Source: a virus
Reading direction: 5' to 3' (one strand)
DNA: 64,000 nucleotides
Virus record (IMG/VR): IMGVR_UViG_3300030673_000004
Coordinates: 1-64,000 of that record
A program made the position numbers and the translations under genes. This document shows, in pieces, positions 2,757-61,211 of the stretch (positions are counted from its first letter, which is position 1; each line of letters starts with the position of its first letter). The notes under the pieces are model-generated. The model searched no databases. It had not been told where the DNA came from and worked only from the letters and a program-made list of their open reading frames with translations.

Positions 2757-3773
2757 TTAGACCTCATGAGTAAAACAGGAACGGTAGTTTCTCAATTCAT
2801 CAGCAGCATGCTGGATATAAAGATCATCCAGCCAATCGGACCAAAACGTATAATCAGGCGCAGGCAGATTGTTTGGAATCTCACGAACTCGAAGAATCTC
2901 ATCAGCAATCCACGCCTCAATGAATGGCCGGGACCACTCATTAGCACGAACGCGAAGCAACTCAGCACGACGAGGAGATGGGAGAGTAATACGCCCCGTC
3001 GTCAGATACTCCTCAAGTTCCCACACAACACGAAGAGCATGGTAATAAGCTTTAAGATCCGTTCCATCAGCAGCGGCTGCAGCTTTTGCACGGTCCCCGA
3101 AAGCATTCAATTTATTCACAAGAATAGGATACACTTCAGCCAAACTACGTCCCAGGGGGAAGGCACAATCAGGACCATACAGGTACATCTCACCAGCCTG
3201 AGCACCACGACGAGGTTCTACCGAGAAATGAGTCAGCCCCTCAAAGACACCTGTGTCAACAAACGACTTGAGTTTAAGGTTCACGTGATCACCTTGCGTG
3301 AACGAACCTGTATAAGACAAACAAGCATCCTGCACATGAAGCAATTCGTTGTACTTTTCACCCTTAGCAGAATACTTAGCGGCCTGACCTCGACAGTAAC
3401 CAATGAAGGGCATTACGATATTCGTCTGCAGCTTTTCACGATGCTCTAAAATGTAGTCCCACACAAAAGACGTGAAGATCAGACACGACTTTGGAGCATG
3501 CAGCAACTCCAGAACATAAGTCTGGCCACCAAGAGCCTGTTTGATGAAATGCCGCAAATCATAACACTTATCGTCCACGTCTGACGCGGTATTCTTCGTC
3601 GCCTTATTCGTGCCGTCTTCACGAGCAGGTACATACAAGTGATTAATCAACCGGCGCGAGTCTGCCATGAAGATATTGACAAAATCCGTGTCACTCTCAG
3701 GTGTGTTAGTTCCAAACAAGCGGGATCCGAAGATTACCTTTGAGATAGTACGGCCAAGAGGTAAGTTTTCCAC
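2757..3773 (-). CDS. Pol-beta-type nucleotidyltransferase (COG3541-like)
   Basis: About 338 residues. The N-terminus carries the nucleotidyltransferase signature: a helix-strand turn GSRLFGTNTPESDTDFV, i.e. GSxxxG followed by the SDxDF pair of metal-binding aspartates. The downstream helical part (residues about 90-330) resembles the predicted nucleotidyltransferases common in large phages, whose substrate is unknown. The start is set to the GTG at 3773 because AACAAGGAG lies 6 nt before it. The only upstream ATG in frame falls inside the -10 box of the promoter at 3804-3832 and so cannot be in the transcript. Confidence 0.75.
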   Translation of the reverse strand: MENLPLGRTISKVIFGSRLFGTNTPESDTDFVNIFMADSRRLINHLYVPAREDGTNKATKNTASDVDDKCYDLRHFIKQALGGQTYVLELLHAPKSCLIFTSFVWDYILEHREKLQTNIVMPFIGYCRGQAAKYSAKGEKYNELLHVQDACLSYTGSFTQGDHVNLKLKSFVDTGVFEGLTHFSVEPRRGAQAGEMYLYGPDCAFPLGRSLAEVYPILVNKLNAFGDRAKAAAAADGTDLKAYYHALRVVWELEEYLTTGRITLPSPRRAELLRVRANEWSRPFIEAWIADEILRVREIPNNLPAPDYTFWSDWLDDLYIQHAADELRNYRSCFTHEV

Positions 3774-3803
3774 GAAGTGCTCCTTGTTGAGGTGACAAGG
3801 AAC

Positions 3804-3832
3804 AATATACATTAATTATGCTTAGCTGTCAA
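3804..3832 (-). promoter_or_regulatory. Promoter of the nucleotidyltransferase gene
   Basis: TTGACA (3832-3827), 17-nt spacer ending AATTAATG, TATATT (3809-3804) on the minus strand. The leader is nearly identical to those at 298-352 and 8694-8748. The promoter overlaps the 3' end of the interrupted coaE fragment. Confidence 0.85.
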
Positions 3833-4241: not shown

Positions 4242-4345
4242 GGTCTTATTCTCCTGTGTTACTTGTCTGTGTTCTCATGTACGTTGTGTAAACTCAGCAC
4301 ATTCTTAATATAATCAAACATTAACTTTTGTCACTACTTCTTTGC

Positions 4346-4915
4346 ATGAAGATTAAACTTAGTACTTACGCAAAGAATAACGGCATCCACTATCAGACAG
4401 CTTGGCGGTGGTTTCAGAAAGGTTTAATTCCGGGTGCTACTCAAGCACCAACAGGTACTGTCTTCATAGAAGAGCCAGCAACAGCAACAGCATTAAAGCC
4501 TGTAGTTGTTTGTTACTGTCGGGTATCTAATCAAAGTAGGCGTAAGGAGCTACAGTATCAAGTAGATAGGTGTCTCTCTTATTGCGCTGCTAAAGGCTAC
4601 GCTGTTGATAAAGTGTTCAAAGAAGTTGCTTCCGGCATGAATGACAACCGAAAAGAACTATGGGCAGCTATCAATGCAGAACCAACTATAATTGTGGTTG
4701 AGAATAAAGATCGACTTACTAGATTTGGTTTTAATTACATAGAAAAGTTACTTCTCCCTAAATGTACTATCGAAGTTATATCTCCAGCACAGACAGATGA
4801 ACAAGACCTAATCAAAGATATGATTTCTGTAGTCACATCCTTCTGTTGTCGATTATATGGCTTGCGTAGAGCAAAAAATAAAGTTAATGCTGTAAAAGAA
4901 GCTCTTGAGTTATGA
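4346..4915 (+). CDS. tnpA: IS607-family serine recombinase (transposase TnpA)
   Basis: About 189 residues. The N-terminus (KLSTYAKNNGIHYQTAWRWF) is a MerR-type DNA-binding helix-turn-helix. The catalytic domain follows, with YCRVSNQSRR (the nucleophilic serine sits in RVS), the SGMNDNRK segment and the KDRLTRFGF motif of small serine recombinases. The C-terminus is a short helix, the usual IS607 length and order (HTH first). All core residues look intact, so the enzyme may be active. The ATG at 4346 is chosen because it begins at the HTH; a TTG 18 nt upstream is possible. It overlaps tnpB by ATGA. Confidence 0.9.
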   Translation: MKIKLSTYAKNNGIHYQTAWRWFQKGLIPGATQAPTGTVFIEEPATATALKPVVVCYCRVSNQSRRKELQYQVDRCLSYCAAKGYAVDKVFKEVASGMNDNRKELWAAINAEPTIIVVENKDRLTRFGFNYIEKLLLPKCTIEVISPAQTDEQDLIKDMISVVTSFCCRLYGLRRAKNKVNAVKEALEL

Positions 4916-6189
4916 CTTCATTTATTCGCACAAGTCAGCATAGCTTAAAAGACCTTAATAAATGTAAAGCATATGAGCTAAACCTGTTTATCCGTGCTTA
5001 CAGAGAAGCTGTAAATGTTTATGTTGATTTTCTGTGGAATACTAGAATTGAATTTAATACTACTGTTCTTGATGTAAAAGAACATCAGTACAATGTACCA
5101 AAGTTTATACCTAAGCTACTAGAAAATTTTAATACGCTACTAACGTCTAGGGCGTTGAAGTGTGCCTCTACGCAGGCTTGTGGGGTAGTTGCCTCTGTTT
5201 TAGATAAAAGACAGAAAGATGAGAGTAAATTAGAGTGGTTTTATTCTCAAGGTAAAAAGCCATCAGCCGCACTAATTGAAAGATTATCGAAACCACCTGT
5301 ATGTCCTAACACACAAAATATAAACTGCGAACTGAATAGTATTATAGTCAGTGTTGGTGCAGAAATTAATAGTTTTGATTTATGGCTTAATTTTTCAGCG
5401 TTGTTCAAAAGTAAACGAGGTTTTAAGCTGGCTGTGCCCGCTAGGCATCATAGGCAATCTCGGAAATGGCAGGCAAGAGGAAAGTTACTTACATCTATTC
5501 TTTTGAATGAGCACCAATTTAATCTACGTTGGGACGTTGAAGAGCCTAAGAAGCGTACTTCTGGTACTATCGTAGGTGTAGATCAAGGGATTACGGATTT
5601 ATTAACAATATCAAATAATCAAGAGTTTCCAATAGACATTCATGGGTACACACTTACCTCTATTTTGCATAAGATAGCTAGAAAACGTAAAGGGTCTCTA
5701 GCCTTTGCTGCTGCCCAGCAGCACAGAAAGAATTATATTAATTGGTATGTCAAGAAACTTGATTTAGCTGATGTAAAAGAGGTAAAACTCGAAAAGATAA
5801 CAAATATAGGCTACAGAAGAACATCCAGTAGATTTCTTCGTGGCTTTACAAATACGTTGATTAGAGATTCACTAGAACGCCTATGTTTGGAAAGCGGTGT
5901 CCGTTTTTCGCTCATTGACAATGAATTCAATAGTCAACGTTGCAATAAATGCGGTTGGACACAGAAGAGTAATAGAAAAGGTAAGTTGTTTCTTTGTAAA
6001 AACTGTAAGCATGAAGCAGATGCTGATGTAAATGCTTCATGTAACATTTTAATCAGGGATAGCTTAATTCTACTACCTTTTGGGTTCCGTGCTAAAAAGT
6101 TAAACATTAACGGGTTCTTTTGGACTCAAGAACATGTTGCTTTGAAGTACGGGGAAGAGCTTACAGTCCTTCTTAACCGAGAAACTTAA
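4912..6189 (+). CDS. tnpB: RNA-guided nuclease TnpB
   Basis: A 425-residue protein of the Cas12 ancestor family. RuvC motif I is GVDQGITDLL (Asp), motif II is KLEKITNI (Glu), and motif III is ADADVNASCNI (Asp). Between II and III lies a four-cysteine zinc ribbon, CNKCGWTQKS followed by CKNCKHEAD. All catalytic residues are present. TnpB uses an RNA made from the element's right end whose guide is the adjacent flank, and cleaves copies of the target site that lack the element, aiding retention. Here the flank is the phage coaE gene. Start codon overlaps tnpA, giving translational coupling. Confidence 0.92.
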   Translation: MTSFIRTSQHSLKDLNKCKAYELNLFIRAYREAVNVYVDFLWNTRIEFNTTVLDVKEHQYNVPKFIPKLLENFNTLLTSRALKCASTQACGVVASVLDKRQKDESKLEWFYSQGKKPSAALIERLSKPPVCPNTQNINCELNSIIVSVGAEINSFDLWLNFSALFKSKRGFKLAVPARHHRQSRKWQARGKLLTSILLNEHQFNLRWDVEEPKKRTSGTIVGVDQGITDLLTISNNQEFPIDIHGYTLTSILHKIARKRKGSLAFAAAQQHRKNYINWYVKKLDLADVKEVKLEKITNIGYRRTSSRFLRGFTNTLIRDSLERLCLESGVRFSLIDNEFNSQRCNKCGWTQKSNRKGKLFLCKNCKHEADADVNASCNILIRDSLILLPFGFRAKKLNINGFFWTQEHVALKYGEELTVLLNRET

Positions 6190-6215
6190 AGTTTATAAAT
6201 ACTTATACTTTAAGT
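6184..6215. repeat. Inverted repeat at the transposon right end
   Basis: ACTTAAAGT (6184-6192) and its perfect complement ACTTTAAGT (6207-6215) surround a 14-nt A/T loop immediately after tnpB and 3 nt before the right TGTTAC. It could be the 3' hairpin of the TnpB guide RNA scaffold, a terminator, or a recombinase site. Confidence 0.6.
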
Positions 6216-7337
6216 AACTGTTACAACACGTCGCATACAAGAGTTCATACTTTCACCGGACTCAACACAAAACCGAAGAGAACAACGATTCCACACAGAG
6301 GGCACGGAAACCATTGGTACCATCTCAAGAATCGTCGGTACATCCGAAACAACACGATCTAAAGCAGATAGCAGAAAAGGTAAGTTCATCGTATTAAACT
6401 TATTCAGCACTTTCCATGGATTGTACCAAGCACCACGAGTAAACAACAAGGAGGTCATTGCTTCAGAATTGTACGAGCCATTAGGAGCAAGAACAGAAAT
6501 ACCATACGGCTCAAAAAAGGCGCAAAGAGCGTCTTTATATGAATCCAACGGACGAACGTACTCTTTGAATACATAATCCGCGCTCACGTATACATAGCCA
6601 CAAGTACTAGCAACTAATCTGGCAAAGTAACTCTTACCGCTGCCAATAGTACCAAAAACTCCAAGGAGATTACGGCAAGTAGCGAGTGACATACCAAATA
6701 AACGAAGTTGCCTAATAGCAGAGCTTGAAATATACGAAAGTTCGGGTGAGCTCACAAAAAAAGTATAAGGCAAAGTCTTTTCTGCTAAGTCAAAAACAAA
6801 CTGCCGCTGCACAAGTTCAGACTTTAGATCCCCTACATCGCGCAAGCCGCGTATAATACTGACTTGATACGAAGGTATAGAGGAGTAATGCTGAAAAACA
6901 TCTGCAAGAGTACCTCTGAACTTAACAGTTTCATAAGACGAGGGAACACCAGGAATAGAAAAAGGGAAAACAGAGAATCCCGATGAAAAAACAGACGAAG
7001 CATTAAGTTTATCTGGATTCTGTCCAATAGCAACAATCACCTTATCAAAAGCATGAGTTGCTTGCTTCACGATATCCAAATGACCTTTATGAAAAGGATT
7101 AAATGAACCAGCGTAGATACCGACACGAAGTGTTTTCTTCTTTAAGCATGCCTCATACGCATCAATTCGTTTGCTATGCTGTCCTTGAAGCAGAGCACGA
7201 ACCAACGAAATATGTCCAGAAACAAACTCAGCATAAGGAAGAAAAGAATACTCAGCATAAATTTTATCGCTATACGATAGTAGGTCCGGAAGATCAGACT
7301 GCAAGACAGAACGATCATACTTATTAAACTTATGCAC
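6210..7337 (-). pseudogene. coaD: HD C-terminus + CoaD + truncated CoaE (part of a broken trifunctional fusion)
   Basis: Residues 1-70 resemble the C-terminal helices of COG4339-type HD phosphohydrolases (DRSVLQSD, then a helix with YAEYS and a FVSGH segment) and continue, after a one-base shift, the gene at 7363-7749. Residues about 71-215 are phosphopantetheine adenylyltransferase: VGIYAGSFNPFHKGHLDIV (nucleotidyl-transfer HxGH-type site), IIRGLRDVGDLKSE, and ELSYISSSAIRQLR. From about residue 220 dephospho-CoA kinase begins (GVFGTIGSGKS P-loop, VSADYVF). It is cut by the transposon at 6225, and the last codons before the stop at 6210 come from the insert. The adenylyltransferase part could still be functional; the kinase lacks its lid. 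Fusion of these two CoA steps in this order is known from animal COASY. Confidence 0.8.
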
Positions 7338-8749: not shown

Positions 8750-9907
8750 TTATCTTAATGTAGCCACAAAAGAAATTAAAGATGCCTTATCTGACAACAG
8801 AGAACGAGCATAGATTGCATCTAGCAGCTTACGCTGAACAACACCACAAGAAGCACCGGAGAATCCCAGGGAAACAAGATCACCACCAGTAAGAGCCAAT
8901 TCCTTAGGGAACAACGGAATATCTTGAGTTGATTTATTCAAGCAACGTGCCTCAAAATAGGATGGCGGACAACAAAAACAGCGCAAAGTTAGAGACACAT
9001 AATTGTATAACTCCCGAGAGCGCACAAGAGAATGCACAGCCTTGGTACTAACACCTGCAGTATAAGAGCGAAAAGCCTGCAGTGCAGATAACTGAATAGA
9101 TGTAGGTGAAACATACGATAAATCTGGCTTACCTGACGCAAATAAGGAGACAAATCCAACAGCATCACGATCAGACAAGGATAGACCTTGAAGATCAACT
9201 GGTTTTGGATCAAAATCTACACCAAACAGAGAAGTACCGATAGTTGTTCGGAGCAACCCACAAAGAACTTCAGTATTGAATGACTTAATAAACGCCTTAT
9301 GCAACTCTGCTTGAATACGCTCAGGTGAGCAACTAAGCAGCGTAGAACTCATCTCAAGTGCCGCCACAAACGTAGTGTCATCAATACTAAACCCGAGACG
9401 ACTCGCAAACTGAACTGCACGAAGAATCCGAAGAGGATCTTCAGTGAACCGATCCCGAGCATCACCCACAGCACGAATCACACCAGATTGCAAGTCAGCG
9501 GCACCGCCAAAGGGATCAATTGTTACACCGCACTCGACATCATAAGCGATAGCATTAATTGTAAAGTCCCGCCGAGCTAAATCATCAACAACAGACAAGT
9601 TACTATCCAGTAGAACTTCAAAGTCACGATGACCGGCACCTGTAGACTGCTCTGTCCGAGGAAGAGCAAAATCATAAGAGTCACCGTCAATGAGAGCAGT
9701 CACAATGCCAAAACTACGTCCTACCTCAGATGCGTGCCCGAGAGAAGATACTGCTTGCTGAACCTGTTCTAGAGATAAGCCAGTAACAAGATAATCAATA
9801 TCCTTTGGAACAAGGCCAAGCACAGCATCTCGCACACAACCACCAACGCGGTACAGGCGACCACCTTGTTGCTCAATGCTAGCTAGAATCTTATGTTCAG
9901 TCTTCAT
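8750..9907 (-). CDS. cca: CCA tRNA nucleotidyltransferase
   Basis: A 385-residue class II CCA-adding enzyme, which builds or repairs the 3' CCA of tRNAs. The N-terminal head carries YRVGGCVRDAVLG and KDIDYLVTG (metal-binding DxD), then RRDFTINAIAYD and the ribose/nucleotide motif EDPLRILRAVQFASRLGF. The tail is short compared with cellular enzymes. No tRNA gene was recognised in this window, so it may serve phage tRNAs elsewhere or mend host tRNAs cut by defence nucleases. The ATG lies only 7 nt after the -10 box, so the mRNA should be leaderless. Confidence 0.92.
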   Translation of the reverse strand: MKTEHKILASIEQQGGRLYRVGGCVRDAVLGLVPKDIDYLVTGLSLEQVQQAVSSLGHASEVGRSFGIVTALIDGDSYDFALPRTEQSTGAGHRDFEVLLDSNLSVVDDLARRDFTINAIAYDVECGVTIDPFGGAADLQSGVIRAVGDARDRFTEDPLRILRAVQFASRLGFSIDDTTFVAALEMSSTLLSCSPERIQAELHKAFIKSFNTEVLCGLLRTTIGTSLFGVDFDPKPVDLQGLSLSDRDAVGFVSLFASGKPDLSYVSPTSIQLSALQAFRSYTAGVSTKAVHSLVRSRELYNYVSLTLRCFCCPPSYFEARCLNKSTQDIPLFPKELALTGGDLVSLGFSGASCGVVQRKLLDAIYARSLLSDKASLISFVATLR

Positions 9908-11816: not shown

Positions 11817-12407
11817 CTAAGGAATATATCCTATGTCAAGGTCTTTACCAGATTTAGCTAATGATACCTTTGCTCGCTCAAGCACTTGACGAGCTCCCTC
11901 TCGGGTAAGGTGATAAATATCCTTGATATCATCTAGCAGTAGATCCGACAAAAATCGTAACTTAACAATTTTCAGATCACGCGCCGACAAATTACTGTGC
12001 AACAACAGACTGGATACTTCGTCCACGTATTCAACCTGACACATGTTCGCCCCATCAGTATCATCTATCAGTATATCCGCATACAAAGATATGTCATCAT
12101 TAAGACAATCATACTTATGAGATTTGCGAAAAGTACATAAAGCACCCCGGATGTAGTAAGTCACCCAATTATTAAGGGATCCTTTCAATGGGTTATATGT
12201 TTTAATTGCTAATGGTATCTTAGATAGTGCATACGAGAACATGTCATCTTGCCATACCCACAAATTGTAACCACGACATGTCTTAAGGGCAAACCAATGA
12301 ATCAAGGGCACGTAAGATTGAATAATAAAGTTTAAGGCGCAAGCATCCCCTGCCTGTGCCTTAGAAATAGTTGTTGGATGAATCTCGGTCTTAGTAGTCC
12401 TAGCCAT
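11817..12407 (-). CDS. Sigma-70-family RNA polymerase sigma factor
   Basis: 196 residues with the layout of a short ECF/sporulation-type sigma factor. Region 2 spans about residues 20-90 (FIIQSYVPLIHWFALKTCRG, DDMFSYALSKIP, LNNWVTYYIRGALCTF). Region 4 spans residues 135-185 (LSARDLKIVKLRFLSDLLLD, then the helix-turn-helix YHLTREGARQVLERAKVSL). It would redirect host RNA polymerase to a phage gene class. The start codon follows a TATATA -10-like box by 6 nt, so it may be leaderless. Confidence 0.78.
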   Translation of the reverse strand: MARTTKTEIHPTTISKAQAGDACALNFIIQSYVPLIHWFALKTCRGYNLWVWQDDMFSYALSKIPLAIKTYNPLKGSLNNWVTYYIRGALCTFRKSHKYDCLNDDISLYADILIDDTDGANMCQVEYVDEVSSLLLHSNLSARDLKIVKLRFLSDLLLDDIKDIYHLTREGARQVLERAKVSLAKSGKDLDIGYIP

Positions 12408-12446: not shown

Positions 12447-13214
12447 TTACAGCAAAGAACCTTGAAAAACACACTGACGAGTAGGTTTACTACCACGCAA
12501 GAAGGACAAGGCATAGGAGTCACTAAAGGCATAAGCAAACCTATGCTTAAACATACGGCCAAAGTTCGACAGATCAATCGGGCCGCGAAGAGCTTCATAA
12601 GCACCATGAACATCACGCATAGTAAAGGTATTGTCCTTAGGGCTCACAGCCAGCCCACGCAGGATGTCTTCATCCCACGCATGCTTTTGCAGATGAGCGA
12701 GCATCTCAGACAAAATAGTATGGTGATCAAAAGCCAGTGTACCAGCAAGAGCAGTAGAGACAGTCACCCACTGAGCAGTAGCTGCGTCATCATTTGCTTT
12801 AATTGGTAATGAATCTGCCTGATCGTGGTGCAGCAAACAGAAATAGGATACATCTGCGGTGTACCACCGAGGATCCCGATCATAGGAAGCATATGTCTTA
12901 AACTGATGAAGAGGCACAGTACCCATAGGAATACTGGTTTCTTCTTCCAACTCACGCAATGCTGCGTGGTCTACACTCTCCTTGTCCTGAATGTTAACAA
13001 AACCACCAGGAAAGGCAAAGCAACCAGCGTAGGGAGCAAACTTCCGTTCAATCAACAGCACCTGCAGCCGATCCAGGTTCCGAGTGCTCGGATCCAATCG
13101 GAAAATCACAATATCAGCGGTAAGCGTAGGACGTTCAAACACGGTTGGGTCGTAACCAGAATCCGGGTAAAGGTCCAAATACGATCCGTGCTTTCCAGAA
13201 ATACGTTCAGTCAT
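12447..13214 (-). CDS. nrtR: NrtR-like Nudix transcriptional regulator of NAD metabolism
   Basis: 255 residues, last gene of the NAD operon. The N-terminal two thirds is a Nudix fold (LQVLLIERKFAPYAGCFAFP, then GGFVNIQDKESVDHAALREL and EEETSI). The Nudix box has two extra residues before its first glutamate, typical of non-hydrolysing or altered members. The C-terminal 80 residues (DNTFTMRDVHGAYEALRG, then GRMFKHRFAYAF) match the winged-helix domain of NrtR, which senses ADP-ribose and represses NAD genes. Its position directly behind nadD (8-nt overlap) supports this. A Nudix hydrolase acting on ADP-ribose or NAD is the alternative. Confidence 0.78.
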   Translation of the reverse strand: MTERISGKHGSYLDLYPDSGYDPTVFERPTLTADIVIFRLDPSTRNLDRLQVLLIERKFAPYAGCFAFPGGFVNIQDKESVDHAALRELEEETSIPMGTVPLHQFKTYASYDRDPRWYTADVSYFCLLHHDQADSLPIKANDDAATAQWVTVSTALAGTLAFDHHTILSEMLAHLQKHAWDEDILRGLAVSPKDNTFTMRDVHGAYEALRGPIDLSNFGRMFKHRFAYAFSDSYALSFLRGSKPTRQCVFQGSLL

Positions 13215-13809
13215 TGTAAAGCCCCAATTTGTAACAAAGTTTAACCGTTTCCGGTGCCATTAATTTAAGTAACTCACTATCTGGTGCCTTAGCAGCAAAA
13301 GATTTACGAGCTTGTGTTGAAGATATACTCTGAAAATCAGCAGGAAGAGCAGGTAACAGCGTGTGGAAACTGGATTTAAGCCATGGCAAGGATACACTGG
13401 AACCCATGCCACGAGGGAGCACAATAATAGAGAACTCCCGAATGAGAGATTTTCCATTAATCCAATGATCCTCAATCTGTTCAGCTTGGTCTTGACCAAC
13501 AATCAAAGAAACAGCATCCACACCAGGAGACATCTTAGCATAGTTAAGGAGTTCATAGGTACTCCCAGTGCTACTACTAAGCTCAGACTCAAGCAGACTT
13601 ACATGAGTGCAAGGAATACGCTGAAAAAGACTCTCACACAAATGCATACGAATGCTGTAGTCAACCAGATCTTTGCCATAAGCATGTTTAAGAACGGGAA
13701 TGATCCAAACCCTATCCACATTTGGACAAGTGGCAAGGGTTTGACACACTACGGCGCGATGCGCTAGTGTTGGAGGATTAAACGACCCACCGTAGAGTGC
13801 CACACGCAT
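13207..13809 (-). CDS. nadD: Nicotinate-nucleotide adenylyltransferase
   Basis: 200 residues, the usual length of NadD. It joins nicotinate mononucleotide and ATP to give deamido-NAD. MRVALYGGSFNPPTLAHRAV is the nucleotidyltransferase GGSFNPPxxxH site; the conserved ISSTQARKS motif lies near residue 165; SLIVGQDQAEQIEDHW corresponds to the substrate loop. The start overlaps the pncA stop as TAATG, so it is translationally coupled. Because the neighbours act on acid (not amide) intermediates, NadD rather than an NMN-specific enzyme is the best call. Confidence 0.88.
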   Translation of the reverse strand: MRVALYGGSFNPPTLAHRAVVCQTLATCPNVDRVWIIPVLKHAYGKDLVDYSIRMHLCESLFQRIPCTHVSLLESELSSSTGSTYELLNYAKMSPGVDAVSLIVGQDQAEQIEDHWINGKSLIREFSIIVLPRGMGSSVSLPWLKSSFHTLLPALPADFQSISSTQARKSFAAKAPDSELLKLMAPETVKLCYKLGLYND

Positions 13810-14654
13810 TAGCCAAACACCTTACCCTGCAGAACACTCTCTACGGTAGCAACAGTGCAGCCTTGCTTAGCCATGTTCTCAAGAAAACGAATCCCTTGCT
13901 CTTCATAGCCGGTGACATCCGACATACAATCTTCCAAGAGCACGATCTTCTTCAGATCAAAACCCAAGTTGTAGTCTTGAATGCGCTGAACCATCTGCTC
14001 AACCGAGCACCGAACACAATGCGAACGAGCCTCACCACCAACGACGATGGGCAGATTACCGAAAAGGAGATTTCCAAGCAGATTGTCATTGAAATCTGCC
14101 AAGATATTCCCATGCCCTTTATACTCCGGCTCAAAAATGCCAAAGCTCTCCAAGTCCTGATGGTATCCCTTCTTGGCCATAGTGGCAATACGGCCCGGAC
14201 CACTGTTCTCCCACGAATGCACAGCAGCAACAAGGTTGTTACTCAGTTCATAGCTCTGTGTGCCAGGAACACAATGAACAGGCCAAATCATGCTACCACG
14301 AATCGGATCAATGTAACGCTTTGCGTATTCCTGCTTTTTCGGATCGGCAGCTTGAATAGCACCACTCTCAAGAGCAAGAAGGTTAACTAGGGTAAAGGGC
14401 TCTGGAGAAACCCCTTCCGAAGTCAGCCACCAACCAGGATGACCAATGTGAGCAATAGGGTGCTGATCTACAGTAAGAAAAATATCAACAATATCCTCCT
14501 CTGCCTCCGTAATGAAATTCGAGAATCGAACGACATCCTCAAAAGCACCAGCAGGGCACAGCGGCTCGCCAGGGCAAACAAATGCCTTCTGAAAATCAAT
14601 TCCAAAAACCTTAAACGGTGTACCCATCAGAAATCTCCTTCTCAGTGAATGCAC
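13809..14654 (-). CDS. pncA: Nicotinamidase
   Basis: 281 residues of the isochorismatase/cysteine hydrolase fold; converts nicotinamide to nicotinate and ammonia. The catalytic Asp is in FGIDFQKAF, the metal site is DQHPIAHIGHPGWW (D-H-H pattern of nicotinamidases), and the nucleophile is the cysteine in GGEARSHCVRCSVEQM. LLEDCMSDVTG closes the fold. It is longer than E. coli PncA (about 213 residues), closer to eukaryotic and some phage forms. Lies between nadE and nadD with 0-1 nt spacing. Confidence 0.85.
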   Translation of the reverse strand: MHSLRRRFLMGTPFKVFGIDFQKAFVCPGEPLCPAGAFEDVVRFSNFITEAEEDIVDIFLTVDQHPIAHIGHPGWWLTSEGVSPEPFTLVNLLALESGAIQAADPKKQEYAKRYIDPIRGSMIWPVHCVPGTQSYELSNNLVAAVHSWENSGPGRIATMAKKGYHQDLESFGIFEPEYKGHGNILADFNDNLLGNLLFGNLPIVVGGEARSHCVRCSVEQMVQRIQDYNLGFDLKKIVLLEDCMSDVTGYEEQGIRFLENMAKQGCTVATVESVLQGKVFG

Positions 14655-16715
14655 TTAACCAACAGTCAATAACTTAGCCTTGAGCTCCTTGTATGCCTTA
14701 GTGTAGTAAACACCACCAATAGCTTCTCGAAAATCGAACCCATAAGCTCTACGGCTCACGACAAGTACAGGCGGAGCCTGAACACGCTTCACAATGCCCA
14801 TGCCCTTAAACAAGCCCCACCAACGTTCAAGATCTGCAACGAAATCTTCCGCTGTTGGGAAAAGATACTTAAACTCTGTATATTTGTCAACATCAATCTC
14901 AAGATGTTCCAAAAGATCACCCATAATATAATGATTAAGGGTATCCTCAACATTATCGCGATTCCATGGCTCAACCCACGAAGCAAATAGCTTGTCGTGG
15001 TACCAGTAGGTGATAGGATCACCCTTACCTGCATCAACATTCTGATCAGCACTCAACTCCGCCGAGGGCTTAAGTGTGTACAAGGAGTCAGGAATGATCT
15101 TATGATCAAAAGTGTTCTCCACAGCACGAAGAGTTTCATAAACTTCATGCTTCCAGAGATCCGCTAGAGGAGCAAAATACCCCATGTGATCACCGCCCAT
15201 AGTGCAGTAACCAACAGTAAGCTCAGCTTTGTTTCCATTGTTGGGAAACACCGCATGAAACCCAGCAGCCAACATAGCCTGAACACCAGCACCACGCATA
15301 CGAGCCTGGATATTCTCCGTATCATCCCAGAACTCCGTGGCCTTAACGTCCGACTCCCACAGCCCAACATGAACACTGGTCATGAAGTCCGTAACAGACT
15401 TCCCAATAGGAATCTCCAAGTAGCGAATACCCAAATTATCTGCAATTGTTTTTGCAATACCCTTGGTTGTTTCGCTATTAAATTCAGTAGGCATATTAAC
15501 AGCGATCACGTTTTCAGCACCAAGAGCCTTTACATGAAGCAACGTGGACAGTGCCGAGTCCACACCACCACTCAACCCAATCACAGCACGCTTGATGCCA
15601 CCCTGCTCACAAAACTTCTGGATGCCGTAAGCCAAAACGTCATGAAGTTCTGGGTCTTGCTGCTCAGTCTGCCAAGGCGACTCAGCAGCCACTTGGACAC
15701 TCGTAGGAGTAACAGTAACCAAACCCATGCATTCCCTGAGAGGGGGTAGCGCACAGATAACAGCACCGTCCATATAAACAGTAGAGCTCCCGTCAAAAAC
15801 AAAAACATCCTTACCGTTGTTCTGAATACCAACACTGTTGACATAGATCAGAGCATTAAACTCTTGCGAATGCTGAGCAAAACGACGATTGCGAGCACCA
15901 TTCTTGCCTTGAGTAAATGGTGAGCAACTCAAGTTTACATGCACATGCATCTTCCCTGGAGCCGACACGCTGCGACCCCGGCAGTTATGAATAGGCTTAG
16001 TAGCATAATCATCATCCCAACCATCTTCACAGATCGACGGTGTGATATACAAATTGTCTTCACTGTAGATAGACATTATGGGTGTATGAGCAGTGCCGCT
16101 ACGAAAATAACGCTTATCTTCAAACTCACGATAGTTTGGCAGATTCGTTTTATGGTACTCCATAGCGTACCTGCCTAGGATTACAGCGCTATTAAAACGC
16201 TCCCTGCGACCATCTTCGTAATTCGTATCACCCAAGGTCACAGAACCTAAAATAGCAGTAATACCAAGTTCCAGAGCAACAAAGGAAATATCCTGTTTTA
16301 GGTACCCCAGACAATCCTTAAGGAAAGCTGCATCCTCCCAGTCATCACCTACCATGTAGCCAGGAAGAGCCATTTCAGGAAAAACAGCAACCTGAGCACC
16401 AGCATCCTTGGCAAGGTGCAGGTACTTAATGATCTTAGCGGCATTCAAATCAGGGCGCTTTGCAACAACCTCAATCTGACAGATAGCGATAGTCTTTGCA
16501 GTAGTAAGCATTTCGTCGTCCTCTAATTCGTCGTTAATTCCACAAAGCTTAACCTGGTCCCATAGCAGATAATCTTCCTCAGCATCATCTGCCACATGGA
16601 GAAACCCACAGGTACCATTTGCGTGCTTTGGCTTTTGTGCATCTAATCCCCAGTAAGGACATTTGCCTCTGCCATCATAGCAATAGATACCTGTAGGAAT
16701 TTCCAGATGGCACAT
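14655..16715 (-). CDS. nadE: Glutamine-dependent NAD+ synthetase with Cys-rich N-terminal extension
   Basis: 686 residues. After a 70-residue extension comes a nitrilase-type glutaminase (catalytic Glu in VFPEMALPGY, Lys in HKTNLPNYREF, Cys in SICEDGWDDD). The ATP-pyrophosphatase synthetase follows (IGLSGGVDSALS, then TVGYCTMGGDHMGYFAPLAD), which amidates deamido-NAD to NAD+. The start at 16715 lies 1 nt after the pncB stop; an ATG further upstream would overlap pncB by 65 nt. The extension (CHLEIPTGIYCYDGRGKCP and later HANGTCGFL) has five cysteines and looks like a separate small metal-binding module fused to the enzyme. Confidence 0.9.
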   Translation of the reverse strand: MCHLEIPTGIYCYDGRGKCPYWGLDAQKPKHANGTCGFLHVADDAEEDYLLWDQVKLCGINDELEDDEMLTTAKTIAICQIEVVAKRPDLNAAKIIKYLHLAKDAGAQVAVFPEMALPGYMVGDDWEDAAFLKDCLGYLKQDISFVALELGITAILGSVTLGDTNYEDGRRERFNSAVILGRYAMEYHKTNLPNYREFEDKRYFRSGTAHTPIMSIYSEDNLYITPSICEDGWDDDYATKPIHNCRGRSVSAPGKMHVHVNLSCSPFTQGKNGARNRRFAQHSQEFNALIYVNSVGIQNNGKDVFVFDGSSTVYMDGAVICALPPLRECMGLVTVTPTSVQVAAESPWQTEQQDPELHDVLAYGIQKFCEQGGIKRAVIGLSGGVDSALSTLLHVKALGAENVIAVNMPTEFNSETTKGIAKTIADNLGIRYLEIPIGKSVTDFMTSVHVGLWESDVKATEFWDDTENIQARMRGAGVQAMLAAGFHAVFPNNGNKAELTVGYCTMGGDHMGYFAPLADLWKHEVYETLRAVENTFDHKIIPDSLYTLKPSAELSADQNVDAGKGDPITYWYHDKLFASWVEPWNRDNVEDTLNHYIMGDLLEHLEIDVDKYTEFKYLFPTAEDFVADLERWWGLFKGMGIVKRVQAPPVLVVSRRAYGFDFREAIGGVYYTKAYKELKAKLLTVG

Positions 16716-16716
16716 A

Positions 16717-18009
16717 TCAGGCAGCCAACCCGTAAGTGCGCTGCAGGATGTCTTCGTGACGGCTCTCGTTGAAGTAGTCACCTACCATGTAGGTACGCTT
16801 CAGAGCATCTTCATGCACAGCGTCCTCACACATAGCCTTACCAGCAGTGTCGCTAACCTTTGCCACTGGACGATCATTGACTTCAACAGCCTTCATCACG
16901 AGTTGAAGTGCCTTTACACCCAAGTCATTAGTGAAGTCCGTACCAATGCCAAACGATACCTTAGCACGACCAGCAAACACCTTGAGCAGATTCTCACAAG
17001 TATCTGGATTAAGGCCATCCGAGAACATCAGCACCTTCGTCTTAGGATCAATGTGGAGTTTCTCGTAGTGCCGAATAATCTTCTCACCCCAAATGAACGG
17101 ATCGCCCGAGTCATGACGAGCACCAATGTAACTCTGTGCCAAGAGCATGTCAAAGTCACGAAGGAAAGCATCAACACCAACGATATCCGAAAGAGCAATG
17201 CCCGTCTTGGCACGGTAAAAATGCTGCCACAGATCAAGCATATACTTATTCGAGCTGCCAAGCGTCACATTATCCAGAGCCTGACCGACCTCCAAGAACT
17301 CGTGGGCCATTGTGCCACTGAACGGCGTCTTAAACTCGACAGCCATCTGAACATTCGACGTGCCCAAAAAGACACCAGGAATATCAGCAAACTCCTTGAC
17401 AAGATTTTCAACCACGTAGTGCTGCCAAGCAAACGATGCACGACGACGAGTACCAAACTCGCTGAACGTAAATGCATACTGCTTAGCCAGATCCTTATAA
17501 CGCTTGATCTTGTCCTCAAGTCGCTGCATGCCCTCGTACAGATCCAAATCCTTGTACACATCCCGGAAATATGCTTCCTGCGTCATGGTCATGGCATGGA
17601 TCTCAAAATTGGTATTGTACCGAGCTGGACCATGCGTCCGGATGTCCAAAAGATCACCATTGGGCTCAATCGTGATGAAGTCACGGTTGAGCTGAGCCAA
17701 GCGCAGAAATTCAAGGTAAGGACGAGTCATATAAGGAACAGCGTGCAAACGAGCAAGTGTCCCTGGACTCATGCGACGAGTACAAGCCAAGTCCATCTGG
17801 TTGCTCACCTCAGCAGCGTACTTTGCCAGGTTGACACCAGTAGTACGATTGTGAAACTTCTTCGACATCGTAACATGAGGAAGAAGCGCATCATAAACCT
17901 GACCCATAGTCAGGAAGTAGAAGTCGATGTCATCGAAGGCATGGTTCCGCCCCGCAAGCTTCGACTGATGCTTCTGTGCGAATTCTTCCAAAGTAATATG
18001 TTCTGCCAT
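16717..18009 (-). CDS. pncB: Nicotinate phosphoribosyltransferase
   Basis: 430 residues, first gene of the NAD operon; makes nicotinate mononucleotide from nicotinate and PRPP. Family features: an N-terminal YFLTMGQVYD segment, EFGTRRRASFAWQ near residue 190, FLGTSNVQMA, the catalytic-histidine region PFSGTMAHEFLEVGQ near 235, RHDSGDPFIWGEKI near 300 and the phosphate-binding FGIGTDFTND near 370. Length and motif order match PncB rather than nicotinamide-specific Nampt. Preceded by TAGGAG in a structured leader. Confidence 0.9.
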   Translation of the reverse strand: MAEHITLEEFAQKHQSKLAGRNHAFDDIDFYFLTMGQVYDALLPHVTMSKKFHNRTTGVNLAKYAAEVSNQMDLACTRRMSPGTLARLHAVPYMTRPYLEFLRLAQLNRDFITIEPNGDLLDIRTHGPARYNTNFEIHAMTMTQEAYFRDVYKDLDLYEGMQRLEDKIKRYKDLAKQYAFTFSEFGTRRRASFAWQHYVVENLVKEFADIPGVFLGTSNVQMAVEFKTPFSGTMAHEFLEVGQALDNVTLGSSNKYMLDLWQHFYRAKTGIALSDIVGVDAFLRDFDMLLAQSYIGARHDSGDPFIWGEKIIRHYEKLHIDPKTKVLMFSDGLNPDTCENLLKVFAGRAKVSFGIGTDFTNDLGVKALQLVMKAVEVNDRPVAKVSDTAGKAMCEDAVHEDALKRTYMVGDYFNESRHEDILQRTYGLAA

Positions 18010-18020
18010 GATTGAATCTC

Positions 18021-18056
18021 CTACTTGGGTTAGAGTAACTTTTACTCTTTAAGTAG
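18021..18056 (-). promoter_or_regulatory. Palindrome/hairpin in the NAD operon leader (possible NrtR operator)
   Basis: AGAGTAA (18032-18038) and TTACTCT (18042-18048) form a perfect 7-bp inverted repeat with a 3-bp centre. CTACTT (18021-18026) and AAGTAG (18051-18056) add a second arm that touches the TAGGAG ribosome binding site. NrtR operators in other bacteria are A/T-rich palindromes of similar size near NAD genes, so this may be the operator of the regulator encoded at the operon end; an RNA hairpin limiting translation is the alternative. Confidence 0.5.
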
Positions 18057-18098
18057 AATTTACTACAAAATTCTAAAAAAACAAGAGGTCATGTACAA
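18055..18098 (-). promoter_or_regulatory. Candidate promoter of the NAD operon, overlapping an inverted repeat
   Basis: TTGTAC (18098-18093), 17-nt spacer, TAGAAT (18075-18070) on the minus strand. The -10 box begins a second inverted repeat, AGAATTT (18055-18061) with AAATTCT (18068-18074). It deviates from the phage's usual TATATT promoters, consistent with separate regulation. Confidence 0.45.
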
Positions 18099-39045: not shown

Positions 39046-42000
39046 TTAAAAGCCTTCAGCTACCTCGTCAAACGAAGGATCAGATTCATCTAAACCAACA
39101 CAGGACGACCACCCATGAGACAAGTGCTTTTCCTTGAACTCGGCGCAACCGCAGGGTACTTCCTCTGTCGTACCATCTGCATTTGTAGTCTTCTTCTTTT
39201 TAGTGCAAATCGTTGGATGCTCCGACCATTGATAGGCAGTACCACAGTGCTTACAGACCCACTGCTTTCCTTGACTTACATCCATATCAATGTCTAAGGG
39301 CACGGACATCTTATGCCCGAACAATTCTTCAATAACCTGAGGCGTCTTAGTAACAAAAATATAGCGAGTTAGTCTAGCAATATACCTAAGATCCTCTGCC
39401 GTATTTGGGCACTCTATAAGGACAGAGTCATGCACAGCATTCACTAACTTGTACACCTCATGTACACCCTGATTATACAGCTCTTCAAACAGAAGAGATG
39501 TAGCAAGAGAAGCATAATCACCCGTGGCGGACTGAATAGGTGTATTAACCGCCCTACGAAAATCACGCTGCATCAATGAACGATTATTAGAGTACACATT
39601 ACGAAGCCAGCGTCGTCGTCCAAAAAATGTCTCAACATAGCCATGAGCTTTAGCAAATTCCACACGATCATCAAGCCAAGCCTTACCAACAGAAAACTTA
39701 GAATAGAAACTTTGGCACAACTCCTCAGTCTCCTCTACCGTCTTACCAATTTGTGCCGCAATGCTAGGTGTACCTCTAACATACATCAAACCAAACGTAA
39801 TTGATTTTGTTGCTGTTCGGAGTGTCTTCTCAACCTTCTGACCTTCAGGTACCCCAAACATCAAACGAGCATTCTGCACATGAATGTCCGACATAGCATC
39901 AGACTTAGCTTTTATCTCAGGCTGCGGATCCTTAAGAAAAGCACATTTCATTGCATAAGCGTCAATAAAATTCTGCACAAGACCAGGATCTCGTGACATT
40001 TCGGCCCACATACGAACTTCAGCGGCACAGAAGTCTGCCTGAAAAATGACTTTTCCTGGAGGTGCTATAAAGATATTCTTAATAGCCTTTTTTTCAATAC
40101 CATCACCACGGGGAACCTGCTGCATATTTGGATCTACACAATTATGGACGCACAACTCACCGGCAAAAAAGTTATGGTGATCCTCTACAGTGATGTCATA
40201 AACAGGTACAGAAACATTTAAGCGTTCAACACGAATAATCTTATGATTATTAGGTACAGTATTTTTTAGTATAGCAGTATGGTAACTGATATGCTCATGG
40301 GCTGTGAGCATAGAAAGGTTACTAGGATTGTTATTATAGTGATCCCAATCCTTATGGTGGATATGATAACCCTTAGGAATTTTTACCTTATTAGCATGCT
40401 CAAACACAAAACGATGATCGGCGTACTCCTCATGAACTCCAGTAAACAGTAAAGAACCTTTACGAATACGCTGAAGAGCATAAACACTAGTACCCACAGC
40501 TAAAGCACTTGCAGGCACCCACCCCTGATCTACGGTCTTTACTAAATGATCATCAGTAAGATCTAAATAACCATAATTTACACTTTTACCGGTGTGTCCA
40601 GATTTCCAGTGCAGTCGAATGATCTCACGAACACCTGTTTGCCAGGCTTTTGTAACACGTGAAAGTGTAGGTTTATTGTCAGATGTCAAGCAGTAAGCAA
40701 TATCACCAACTTGCACCTGTTCAATAGGTATACCCTTAGGATTTAAGTTGAGATTTCGGACAATCTCAACCAAAGTACCTTTAGCAATACAACTCAAACG
40801 ACCAGTCTGGGTACCGTGTAAAAGAAACTTTCCATGAATACGCCCATCTACATAATCTGTCTTACCTGGATTTGTAAAACTAGCATTAAATTTGCGGATG
40901 TACGACGAATCCAGCTTTTGCAGACCTTGATACTCAGAAAACAAAGCTACAACAGGATTTCCGATGTTCTCTTCCTGAAAATCAGAATCGGCAGAATAAT
41001 TACCCTCATCATTAGCGGGATACTTAAAACCATTATCACTTGTGAAAAACAGAGCCGTCTTGTGAGTGTGAGAATTTAGATCAAGCACCCAGGGCATAGT
41101 AAACGTTGTCTGCACACCAACACTATTAGTCAATAGCTCCCTATTAACCGCCTGACATACAGGATCCTTCTTAAGCTCAGTAGAGATATCACGCACTCTC
41201 TTCAGAATAGGAGAAGCAGGTGATCCCAACTGGATAAGATGTCGCAAATCAGCCATCATACCAAAATGAGTCATAGCACTATAGCATTTGGTTTTACGAC
41301 TATCAGATACAAGCAACATAGTCATGAACTCGTTTTCAATGCCTAGATTACGTGCTTGTGCAATTAAAGCATGCAATCCGCGCAATGTAGCATACGGATC
41401 CATACCGGAGTAAGAGACAAATTTCGGTAAAGGTAACCCTAGAAGAGTGCCATCTTTACGGGCATCCAACATCTCCTGATCATAGTGGTGAAACCCAAGA
41501 AACTCTACTACAAGCTGTTTTAGACCATTCGGTGCCTGACCACGCATGGTATAAACACGGTCTTTTCTAGCCGAATCCAAAAAATGCATACCAAGCATTG
41601 TATCAACAACAGGACGACGAGGCATAACATGATACTTACAATAGAACTGAGCATTATCAAACTGTGCATTATGTAGAGTCCAATAGGAAATCTTAGAAGA
41701 ACCATCATCTAATAAATCATGCACCATCTGATCAATCTGGGCATTCTCATCTATTGAGAAAGGATTATCATCATGCTGTCTTAATAAGACATAGCCATGA
41801 TTCGGATCATGCGCAAACTGGATAGAAGCTAATTGTGTATTATGGGCATAGTTCAAATTACCTGTTTCAGTATCAAGACCAACAGGACCAGCGTGCTCAT
41901 ATCTAAGAAAATCTAAGTACTCTTTAACAAGCTTAAATGTATCTAAATTTATCTCCTCACCCTTAAGATGATAAGGATTGTTTATAAGAAACCTTACCTT

Positions 42001-42447
42001 AGTAAGATTTTCACCAAGAAACAAAAAATCCTCCACACGTGCATAGATAGCACGATATGTAGGAAAGCAATGAACAGGAACGGAACCCATACCATAGTCA
42101 AATGTATGTATTGACCACTGGATTTCATAGTTCTCCCATTTACCTATCGAGGGTACCAAGAATTTTGACATCCATGGACCTAAAGCAACAAGAGATCGTG
42201 GTTTATACTTACGAAAAGCCTCTAATAAGGCAGCACCGTTTGCACGAGCAACAGCCATAAGGTCGTCAACTTCACCAACCTGATCAGCAAGTGTAATAAT
42301 TACAAAGCTATCCAAGTAATGAGATAGATCATTTATGAACTTGATACCAACAGGATCGTTAAGATTCGCGACTTTTTCTTGGGGCTGTATTAAGATAGCC
42401 TGTACTCTGCCGTCCAATGCTTGTCCAAGTTTTTCGTACACTAACAT
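39046..42447 (-). CDS. polA: DNA polymerase I-type replicative polymerase with intein
   Basis: 1133 residues including a 217-residue intein (about 553-769). N-terminal 180 residues unclassified. The 3'-5' exonuclease has all its acidic motifs: GPVGLDTETGNLNY, LHNAQFDNAQF, and SYSGMDPYATLRGL. The polymerase has TGRLS (split by the intein), motif A FQADFCAAEVRMWAE, motif B RTATKSITFGLMYVRG and motif C VNAVHDSVLIE. A C-terminal zinc ribbon (WVCKHCGTAYQW; CTKKKK; VPCGCAEF) is unusual for family A. Probably the phage replicase, working with DnaB-type helicase and clamp. The gene overlaps its upstream neighbour by 89 nt, so the start is somewhat uncertain. Confidence 0.92.
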   Translation of the reverse strand: MLVYEKLGQALDGRVQAILIQPQEKVANLNDPVGIKFINDLSHYLDSFVIITLADQVGEVDDLMAVARANGAALLEAFRKYKPRSLVALGPWMSKFLVPSIGKWENYEIQWSIHTFDYGMGSVPVHCFPTYRAIYARVEDFLFLGENLTKVRFLINNPYHLKGEEINLDTFKLVKEYLDFLRYEHAGPVGLDTETGNLNYAHNTQLASIQFAHDPNHGYVLLRQHDDNPFSIDENAQIDQMVHDLLDDGSSKISYWTLHNAQFDNAQFYCKYHVMPRRPVVDTMLGMHFLDSARKDRVYTMRGQAPNGLKQLVVEFLGFHHYDQEMLDARKDGTLLGLPLPKFVSYSGMDPYATLRGLHALIAQARNLGIENEFMTMLLVSDSRKTKCYSAMTHFGMMADLRHLIQLGSPASPILKRVRDISTELKKDPVCQAVNRELLTNSVGVQTTFTMPWVLDLNSHTHKTALFFTSDNGFKYPANDEGNYSADSDFQEENIGNPVVALFSEYQGLQKLDSSYIRKFNASFTNPGKTDYVDGRIHGKFLLHGTQTGRLSCIAKGTLVEIVRNLNLNPKGIPIEQVQVGDIAYCLTSDNKPTLSRVTKAWQTGVREIIRLHWKSGHTGKSVNYGYLDLTDDHLVKTVDQGWVPASALAVGTSVYALQRIRKGSLLFTGVHEEYADHRFVFEHANKVKIPKGYHIHHKDWDHYNNNPSNLSMLTAHEHISYHTAILKNTVPNNHKIIRVERLNVSVPVYDITVEDHHNFFAGELCVHNCVDPNMQQVPRGDGIEKKAIKNIFIAPPGKVIFQADFCAAEVRMWAEMSRDPGLVQNFIDAYAMKCAFLKDPQPEIKAKSDAMSDIHVQNARLMFGVPEGQKVEKTLRTATKSITFGLMYVRGTPSIAAQIGKTVEETEELCQSFYSKFSVGKAWLDDRVEFAKAHGYVETFFGRRRWLRNVYSNNRSLMQRDFRRAVNTPIQSATGDYASLATSLLFEELYNQGVHEVYKLVNAVHDSVLIECPNTAEDLRYIARLTRYIFVTKTPQVIEELFGHKMSVPLDIDMDVSQGKQWVCKHCGTAYQWSEHPTICTKKKKTTNADGTTEEVPCGCAEFKEKHLSHGWSSCVGLDESDPSFDEVAEGF
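40141..40791 (-). other. Intein with HNH endonuclease in DNA polymerase I
   Basis: A 217-residue insertion starting at Cys of CIAKGTLVEIVRN (block A) and ending FAGELCVHN before the C-extein Cys of CVDPNMQQVPRG. Block B-like HNFFAGE precedes the end (VEDHHNFF). The middle carries an HNH homing endonuclease: GYHIHHKDWDHYNNNPSNLS, LTAHEHISYH. The insertion splits the conserved TGRLS/DPNMQ template-binding motif, a classic intein site. All splice-junction residues (Cys1, His-Asn, Cys+1) are present. Confidence 0.9.
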
Positions 42448-60167: not shown

Positions 60168-61211
60168 TTATTCTTTCGAGTACTTAGAAAGTATAGTATT
60201 GATAGTATCCAAACTATTTTGCTTCTGCTGTTCCAAAGAAGCAAGATGAGCCAACTCATCGTCAAGATGAGTTCTATCTAAAGGATTTACCGTAACAGGT
60301 AAGAAAATGCGTAAAGCCTCAGAAAGAATAGTAGCAGGAGACGCCGCCTTATACGTTTTTGTACTAAGCACAACAGCAGGTACCGGATCCGTCCTGAGTA
60401 AGGAAGACTGAGAGCAAAACCAGTAAATATTGTTGTTTCGAGACTTGAACAACACCTGTAGAGGAGCATCAAAACAAGGATGATACATAGTAACATCAGA
60501 AAGTTTAACACAGTACAAACCAGAAAACGGCTTGTTAGCAACTAAACACAAAAAACAAGGCTCAGAAGGAGCACCAGAAACGAGACCAAAAGCATTAAGA
60601 GCAGCAACCACATAGGCGGTGGGAAACGTTAGGCAATCCACAGAAGCAGACAAAACGCCCTCCCCTAAACCCAGACTGGAAGCGGACACGCTGGTAGTGG
60701 AACAAACACAACCGCCGCCCTTCTTTCCGCTTACAGGATAAAACTCAGCTTCAGAGCTAAAGCAATATATACCAGAGGGCACATGATTAATACCAGGATT
60801 AATCTCATTCTTGTATGGAACATAAGTCTCTGTTGAATACAACGATTCAATACTAGCTTCCGATAAATCATCACAAGCACCAAAGGTACCATCAGGTGCC
60901 ATAAAAGCAGGAGCAGAAGGCACGTCTAAACCAGTATCAGACCCAGATAAAGAACCAAGATCTGCGATAGAAAATCCAGAAAATAAACTACTCTGAATTC
61001 GCTCCAATGCAGCAGCCTCTTCCTCAGAGGGCGGTGGCAATCTAAACGCCTCAGGTGTCTCTGCCAGAGGAAGATCTAAAATATGAGCCAAAGGAACACC
61101 CCCAGCAAATGGAGGTGGTGCATCTGTAGCTACGTCAGAAGATGTATCTAAGGTAGTACTCACAGCAGATAGTAAACTGTCAAGGCGCTGAGCCAACTTG
61201 TCTTGGGACAT
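60168..61211 (-). CDS. Hypothetical protein
   Basis: 347 residues. Ser/Asp-rich disordered N-terminus, centre with many cysteines (SGKKGGGCVCSTTSVSASSL; EPCFLCLVANKPFSGLYCVK), C-terminal helix with Leu/Gln heptads (ELAHLASLEQQKQNSLDTIN). No family recognised. Heads the clamp-loader operon, directly behind a terminator at 61258-61292. Confidence 0.6.
   Translation of the reverse strand: MSQDKLAQRLDSLLSAVSTTLDTSSDVATDAPPPFAGGVPLAHILDLPLAETPEAFRLPPPSEEEAAALERIQSSLFSGFSIADLGSLSGSDTGLDVPSAPAFMAPDGTFGACDDLSEASIESLYSTETYVPYKNEINPGINHVPSGIYCFSSEAEFYPVSGKKGGGCVCSTTSVSASSLGLGEGVLSASVDCLTFPTAYVVAALNAFGLVSGAPSEPCFLCLVANKPFSGLYCVKLSDVTMYHPCFDAPLQVLFKSRNNNIYWFCSQSSLLRTDPVPAVVLSTKTYKAASPATILSEALRIFLPVTVNPLDRTHLDDELAHLASLEQQKQNSLDTINTILSKYSKE

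Follow-up and report, generated by a model that had tools for sequence, protein, structure and literature searches.

The first 64,000 bases of the 375,537-base record IMGVR_UViG_3300030673_000004 of a giant phage (record G000), a stretch that we call the window, carry five consecutive genes, pncB, nadE, pncA, nadD and an nrtR-like gene, which by their sequences are an operon for the full deamidating route from nicotinamide to NAD+. That the four enzymes work together as a pathway is highly probable, and it is likely that the operon replenishes NAD+ during infection. NAD+-cleaving enzymes (NADases) release nicotinamide and ADP-ribose. PncA would convert the nicotinamide to nicotinate, PncB would join nicotinate to phosphoribosyl pyrophosphate (PRPP), NadD would adenylylate the product of PncB, and NadE would amidate that of NadD to NAD+ with glutamine. 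The fifth protein, a Nudix domain with a winged helix, would couple the operon to ADP-ribose, the other NADase product, as a repressor freed by this compound, as a hydrolase recycling it to AMP and ribose-5-phosphate, or as both. On balance we favor the explanation that this is a deamidating, ADP-ribose-coupled NAD+ reconstitution operon, whose most likely benefit is to bring NAD+ back after its cleavage by host defences (Thoeris, Sir2- or TIR-type NADases). Sequence and fold show which genes are present, that their catalytic residues are kept and that partners of NARP1 and NARP2 are absent; the counter-defence role, the in vivo activity and the inducer are inferred.

The four enzymes

A first-pass annotation of the window had assigned all four steps from nicotinamide to NAD+ to these genes. 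Profiles, fold search and catalytic residues bear this out, and every catalytic residue examined is kept. The profile search proposed for each protein gave a more uneven outcome, with PncB and NadE above their cut-offs, NadD below its own and PncA unmatched. PncB qualifies as a nicotinate phosphoribosyltransferase by TIGR01514 (343 bits, cut-off 270) and PRK05321 (392, cut-off 379), matches PF04095 with 210 bits and aligns to PDB entry 1yir (E=2e-71); its His236, the phosphorylation-site histidine of GTMAHE, is invariant among the phage relatives. NadE joins a glutaminase domain (PF00795) to a synthetase domain (PF02540), exceeds the cut-off of the NAD+ synthetase model TIGR00552 (108 bits, cut-off 64) and aligns to 5kha (E=3e-48). 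Both of its active sites are present: the glutaminase Glu, Lys and Cys are kept (in FPEM, HKTNLP and SICEDGW), as is the ATP loop SGGVDS. The N-terminus of NadE has about 75 extra residues and is Cys-rich. This stretch, CPYWxL...C..L...LWDQVKxCGIN, is encoded at 16485-16715 on the minus strand, and a similar one occurs in locus L013 near 7398, between pncA and nadD.

The score of NadD with TIGR00482, 71 bits against a curated cut-off of 112, speaks against the pathway as we read it. NadD is, however, above the cut-off of CTP_transf_like, can be aligned from end to end with NadD proteins of known structure (5llt, E=2e-8) and keeps the signature motifs GGSFNPPTLAH and ISSTQAR; on the motifs and the full-length match we assign it the adenylyltransferase step despite the sub-cut-off score.

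By sequence, PncA has no better match in the PDB than yeast Pnc1 (E=0.009). An AlphaFold2 (AF2) model of the protein, for which 28 sequences from phages and bacteria were aligned, has a mean predicted local distance difference test score (pLDDT) of 93.5. In the numbering of the 281-aa open reading frame (ORF), the catalytic triad Asp20, Lys161/162 and Cys213 and the metal site Asp63/His65/His127 (Asp-x-His...His) are both present, as expected of a nicotinamidase. The nearest relatives belong to a long phage subfamily of 264-281 aa with about 27-31% identity (loci L012, L014, L043, L049, L057, L059 and L065).

A route distinct from NARP1 and NARP2

Descriptions of phage NAD+ synthesis are almost entirely of amidated routes, with NadV and NadM or NadR (PMC9503650, section 3.6; PMC7824862), or of NARP1 (PMC12774641, PMC13232231). 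NARP2 and the NadV-NadM pair of phage KVP40 also make NAD+ from nicotinamide with phage-encoded enzymes, but by an amidated two-enzyme route, whereas that of the window is deamidating. PncB is the only match to PF04095, and hence the only NAPRTase-family gene, in the 375-kb record; as this model does detect a phage NadV, the Nampt/NadV of NARP2 is truly absent. NARP1 (a Prs-like Adps plus Namat) likewise consumes nicotinamide and ADP-ribose; it builds, however, on the intact ADP-ribose moiety, and the window record is without an Adps-type synthetase domain, the model for PRPP and ADP-ribose pyrophosphate synthetases (PF13793) finding no match in it. Searches with the PF13793 and NAPRTase models, whose power to detect Adps and Namat is unchecked, thus gave no sign of NARP1. 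The distinction from both routes, already drawn in the first-pass annotation, stands, and it extends beyond the window: in all 35 records checked (that of the window and 34 others) PncB is the sole NAPRTase-family gene, so these are without NadV. A phage without Prs would need the PRPP of its host, which is a point to be set against the proposed route. Supply of PRPP by the phage itself was considered and rejected; a Prs domain is found in 5 of 50 records, and the window record is not among them.

The Nudix protein as regulator or hydrolase

In bacterial NrtR regulons, such as that of a member of the Kangiellaceae (L118), a gene for a Nudix plus winged-helix protein lies beside nadE, pncB, pncA and nadD, as it does in the window. 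The window protein departs from these in that its Nudix core is kept and its winged helix has diverged. It matches PF00293 and scores 85 bits with NF050029 NtrR (cut-off 400), and its best PDB matches are 2fml and the Shewanella NrtR entries 3gz5 (E=2.5e-17) and 3gz6. Its AF2 model (pLDDT 91.4) shows a complete winged helix C-terminal to the Nudix domain. Fold matches include the complex of Shewanella NrtR with DNA (3gz6) and ADP-ribose-bound NrtR (3gz8), the latter together with PF00293 pointing to a Nudix-like sensor domain. Because NrtRs were part of the alignment behind the model, the fold does not count as wholly independent evidence, and a score of 42.7 bits against our own winged-helix profile is circular because the profile includes the window protein.

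Several observations tell against regulation by this protein. The Pfam model NrtR_WHD leaves it unmatched even at E=10, while the same model does find the proteins of loci L019, L022 and L048 and gp273 of Bacillus phage G. Its winged helix is diverged in sequence, with NFRKK replaced by NFGRM and RPAxLY by KPTRQCVF. The candidate operator upstream of pncB (Table 1) is the sole perfect copy in the 375-kb record, and in 102 bp of the same make-up a repeat of this kind would arise by chance about 4% of the time. A single copy would fit a dedicated site, weak evidence when taken alone.

It is accordingly quite possible, if somewhat less than an even prospect, that the protein is mainly an ADP-ribose pyrophosphatase, yielding AMP and ribose-5-phosphate (for PRPP), and that its C-terminus is a non-regulating relic. 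The REL-EE core of its Nudix box is intact, unlike the box of NrtRs that regulate NAD metabolism, which is usually impaired (PMC4666351), and the Nudix partners in other phage modules (see below) mostly keep the box and are without a winged helix; the missing match to NrtR_WHD points the same way. A mere relic is harder to reconcile with a C-terminus modelled at high confidence as a complete winged helix, with the 2-residue insertion in the Nudix box, which also occurs in degenerate NrtRs, and with a palindrome at the operon promoter. Moreover, four of the six DNA-contact positions known for M. smegmatis NrtR (PMC6800001) are kept or conservative when placed by spacing: D, N and R are unchanged, S stands in place of T, the Lys is lost and the wing Arg has become Lys. 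To judge from its sequence, the window protein may both cleave and sense ADP-ribose. For repression released by ADP-ribose in the window phage, we would put the chances just under even. The original proposal of an NrtR-like regulator with ADP-ribose as inducer therefore holds as regards the fold, and is weakened by the unmatched NrtR_WHD and the single candidate operator; NrtR identity and induction by ADP-ribose are plausible, less firmly so than first stated, and weakest in the window phage.

The case is stronger elsewhere. The record of locus L019 (G010, 180,807 bp) contains the 21-bp sequence TTAGTTG-N7-CAACTAA exactly three times without mismatch (130548-130568, 131220-131240 and 60179-60199), where base composition predicts 0.0025 copies. 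The sites precede pncB, nadD-nrtR and, some 70 kb away, nadE, and in all three the TTG of an operator arm opens a sigma-70-like -35 box, separated by 17 bp from the -10 box. In locus L022 this site also precedes pncB, and a copy with one mismatch precedes nadD-nrtR. The Nudix boxes of both regulators are lost, and on this evidence L019 and L022 are genuine NrtR regulons of phages, whose repressor is a sensor only. We count G010 as a phage on its IMG/VR classification and strong PHROG matches. An operator common to the window and these loci was sought and discarded: TTAGTTG-N7-CAACTAA is found in the window record only at two mismatches, and the lack of a perfect or one-mismatch copy implies that the window uses another sequence, if any. 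No repeated operator was found around the NAD genes of phage G. Beside pncB in G010 (L184, 121148-129145) lie tandem genes for similar proteins of about 250 aa resembling ankyrin-type repeats.

Recurrence in other large phages

An alignment search for PncB relatives gave 329 viral contigs, of which 80 were kept. Dropping duplicates and likely prophage borders (among them L071-L093, where pncB lies at the extreme contig end and is probably a host gene) left 64 distinct loci, the window included. As the loci were selected by pncB, the following counts are not phage frequencies. Within flanks of mostly 8 kb on either side (12 kb for phage-collection loci), 15 of the 64 loci carry all four enzyme genes and 31 carry three or more, in an order that varies between loci with the NAD set. 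At the level of whole records, a NadE domain was present in 36 of the 46 checked and an isochorismatase-family protein in 28. The Nudix partners in these modules mostly lack the winged helix and have an intact catalytic box, which fits with, and suggests, recycling of ADP-ribose by these proteins. In three loci, NadD-type adenylyltransferases are fused to Nudix domains in a NadM-like layout (L068, 9242-10555; L069; L094, 9308-10543).

The NAD set is found in three cultured phages, Bacillus phage G, Sinorhizobium phage Phosso and Agrobacterium phage Atu_ph07. In phage G (JN638751; L197/L198) gp273, gp275, gp277, gp281 and gp283 make up the full set within 7.3 kb (200123-207372). Like the window, this phage has an nrtR-like Nudix gene (with NrtR_WHD), an isochorismatase-family PncA, PncB, NadD and an NAD synthetase; unlike in the window, its PncB is of the NAPRTase_C type, an unrelated class, its NadE has a single domain and the gene order is another. 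Its genes were annotated one by one and not as a pathway. A KptA-like phosphotransferase, an NAD-using enzyme, is also encoded within the cluster. Phosso and Atu_ph07 share with the window genes for PncB, NadE, a PncA-family protein, an adenylyltransferase and Nudix proteins, the latter differing in the lack of a winged helix; those of Phosso lie within about 5.7 kb and include an ammonia-type NadE, while nadE of Atu_ph07 is located elsewhere. The unrelated class of the phage G PncB argues that the set was assembled more than once and, hence, for selection on the whole pathway. That the same set recurs with its genes rearranged and with enzymes of unrelated classes also supports the reading of the window genes as an NAD+ reconstitution operon. 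It is tempting to speculate that large phages have repeatedly and independently built the deamidating route, a third pathway of NAD+ reconstitution, under an ADP-ribose-sensing NrtR repressor, so that the phage would recognize an NADase defence by its chemical trace and switch on repair only under attack; we offer this as a tentative idea.

Defence against NADases or general metabolism

Whether NADase defence is the main selective reason for the operon is, in our estimate, an evenly balanced question. Most bacteria already own the four enzymes, and the phage copies could thus provide a plain metabolic boost, which argues against a dedicated counter-defence. Under such a scheme, the operon would give general metabolic support, with NAD(H) serving redox reactions, RNA repair and nucleotide synthesis in a long infection and with no particular aim at NADases. 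NAD salvage of the KVP40 type is commonly so interpreted (PMC9127768, PMC13282480). Near the operon lie genes for a coenzyme A-synthesis fusion, for RNA repair and for a CCA/poly(A) polymerase-like protein, and with such neighbors the supply of cofactors may be a broader theme. Against this stand the lack of any NAD-dependent DNA ligase in the window record, so that this enzyme does not explain a need for NAD+, and the pairing of a nicotinamidase with an ADP-ribose-type Nudix protein, which is better suited to reusing what NADases release than to making NAD+ anew. A NADAR-domain protein is also encoded in the record, outside the window (288216-288617 of G000); NADAR proteins act on ADP-ribose compounds, and the family is often linked to counter-defence. 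No Macro domain was found in the record. General metabolic support is possible rather than probable.

It is unlikely that the PncA-like protein takes another amide and that the route begins at nicotinate rather than nicotinamide. Room for this is left by the absence of any matching model in Pfam, PHROG and NCBIfam and by an identity to solved nicotinamidases of only about 18-21%. The protein nonetheless keeps the WPxHC motif along with the catalytic and metal residues, it sits in an operon for the remaining steps, and the best eleven PDB fold matches of its model are all nicotinamidases, ranking above maleamate amidase and the isochorismatases; as modelled, it is a nicotinamidase.

That the operon is misbinned or recently captured bacterial DNA rather than a phage trait is very improbable: the same gene set with nrtR does exist in bacteria (L118 is an example), but phage replication genes are found in the same window, a tail-fibre-like protein is encoded elsewhere in the record and the same module is present in cultured, complete phages. 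The Terminase_6N and sheath models of Pfam are unmatched in both the window record and G010, so that the phage identity of the two rests on PHROG matches.

Relation to earlier reports

In the literature searched, with preprints mostly outside its scope, the deamidating pathway is undescribed in phages. A phage pncB has been reported without a pathway (PMC6715854). For Xanthomonas phage X1, pncB, nadM, nadD, nadE and NAMPT were listed in 2026 and a role in countering NAD+ depletion was suggested (PMC13384950); in contrast to the window, that list comes from automatic annotation and includes NAMPT, and neither pncA nor an operon or regulator is described. The portion of the Atu_ph07 report consulted names genes for nicotinate phosphoribosyltransferase, Nudix, NadR and PnuC, without a deamidating pathway (PMC6102473). 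The components have thus been public for years, gene by gene, and what is new is a deamidating variant of phage NAD+ reconstitution, not a new category. If many large phages carry such a module, together with regulators or recycling enzymes related to ADP-ribose, the range of means by which phages are known to survive NAD-depleting immunity would grow, and phages might be able to sense NAD damage in addition to repairing it. Phages G, Phosso and Atu_ph07, being cultured, make the module testable now.

Organization of the locus

The ORFs confirm five contiguous or overlapping genes in the order given above, all on the minus strand (Table 1). Five consecutive genes of one pathway on the same strand make an arrangement by chance untenable, and the set looks like a translationally coupled operon. 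In the initial ORF list, nadE extends over 16781-14655 and pncA over 14654-13809 (281 aa), with starts that are probably too early. Better starts are ATG 16715 for nadE, 1 nt past the pncB stop, and ATG 14627 for pncA, preceded by AAGGAGA and 27 nt past the nadE stop. With the former, an apparent 65-nt overlap of pncB and nadE disappears. Overlaps are of 1 nt between pncA and nadD and of 8 nt between nadD and the nrtR-like gene. On the 5' side of pncB, a 102-bp gap separates it from a divergently transcribed helicase gene; position 18098, initially taken as the end of the operon, falls in this promoter region, outside any gene. Exact-peptide scans with pncB, pncA, nadE and the adjoining helicase revealed no close relatives of the operon in the records searched. 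The sigma-factor-like gene that follows it possibly shares its transcript.

Table 1. Genes and candidate control sites of the NAD+ operon (window coordinates)
Feature	Position	Strand	Evidence
pncB, nicotinate phosphoribosyltransferase, 430 aa	16717..18009	-	PF04095, TIGR01514, 1yir
nadE, glutamine-type NAD+ synthetase, 686 aa	14655..16715 (from ATG 16715)	-	PF00795 + PF02540, 5kha
pncA, divergent nicotinamidase, 272 aa	13809..14627 (from ATG 14627)	-	fold search, residues
nadD, nicotinate-nucleotide adenylyltransferase, 200 aa	13207..13809	-	5llt, motifs
nrtR-like, Nudix domain + C-terminal winged helix, 255 aa	12447..13214	-	PF00293, 3gz5, fold
sigma-factor-like gene, 39 nt 3' of nrtR-like	11817..12407	-	HTH_16, Sigma70_r4 (below cut-off), phrog_351 RNA polymerase sigma factor; all weak
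candidate operator TAGAATTT-N6-AAATTCTA, perfect 8-bp arms	18054..18075	-	overlaps the -10-like TAGAAT of the operon
promoter-like TGTACA-16-TAGAAT 5' of pncB	18070..18097	-	consensus scan 9/12; weak, matches being as frequent in shuffles
second inverted repeat AGAGTAA-N3-TTACTCT, in the presumed 5' leader	18032..18048	-	repeat search

Other genes of the window were noted in passing. The coenzyme A-synthesis gene (6210-7337, minus strand) encodes a bifunctional enzyme in which a CoaD domain (phosphopantetheine adenylyltransferase) is fused to a CoaE domain (dephospho-CoA kinase). An RlaP RNA-repair nucleotidyltransferase gene (2757-3812) and the CCA/poly(A) polymerase-like gene (8750-9907), both on the minus strand, could mark an RNA-repair neighborhood. 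A mobile element (4328-6189, plus strand) consists of a transposase gene of the IS607 family and, after it, a TnpB-like gene. Finally, on the minus strand, an HNH endonuclease match lies in the DNA polymerase ORF (39046-42447) and a LAGLIDADG match in a UvsX-like recombinase ORF (44266-46887); both are possible inteins.

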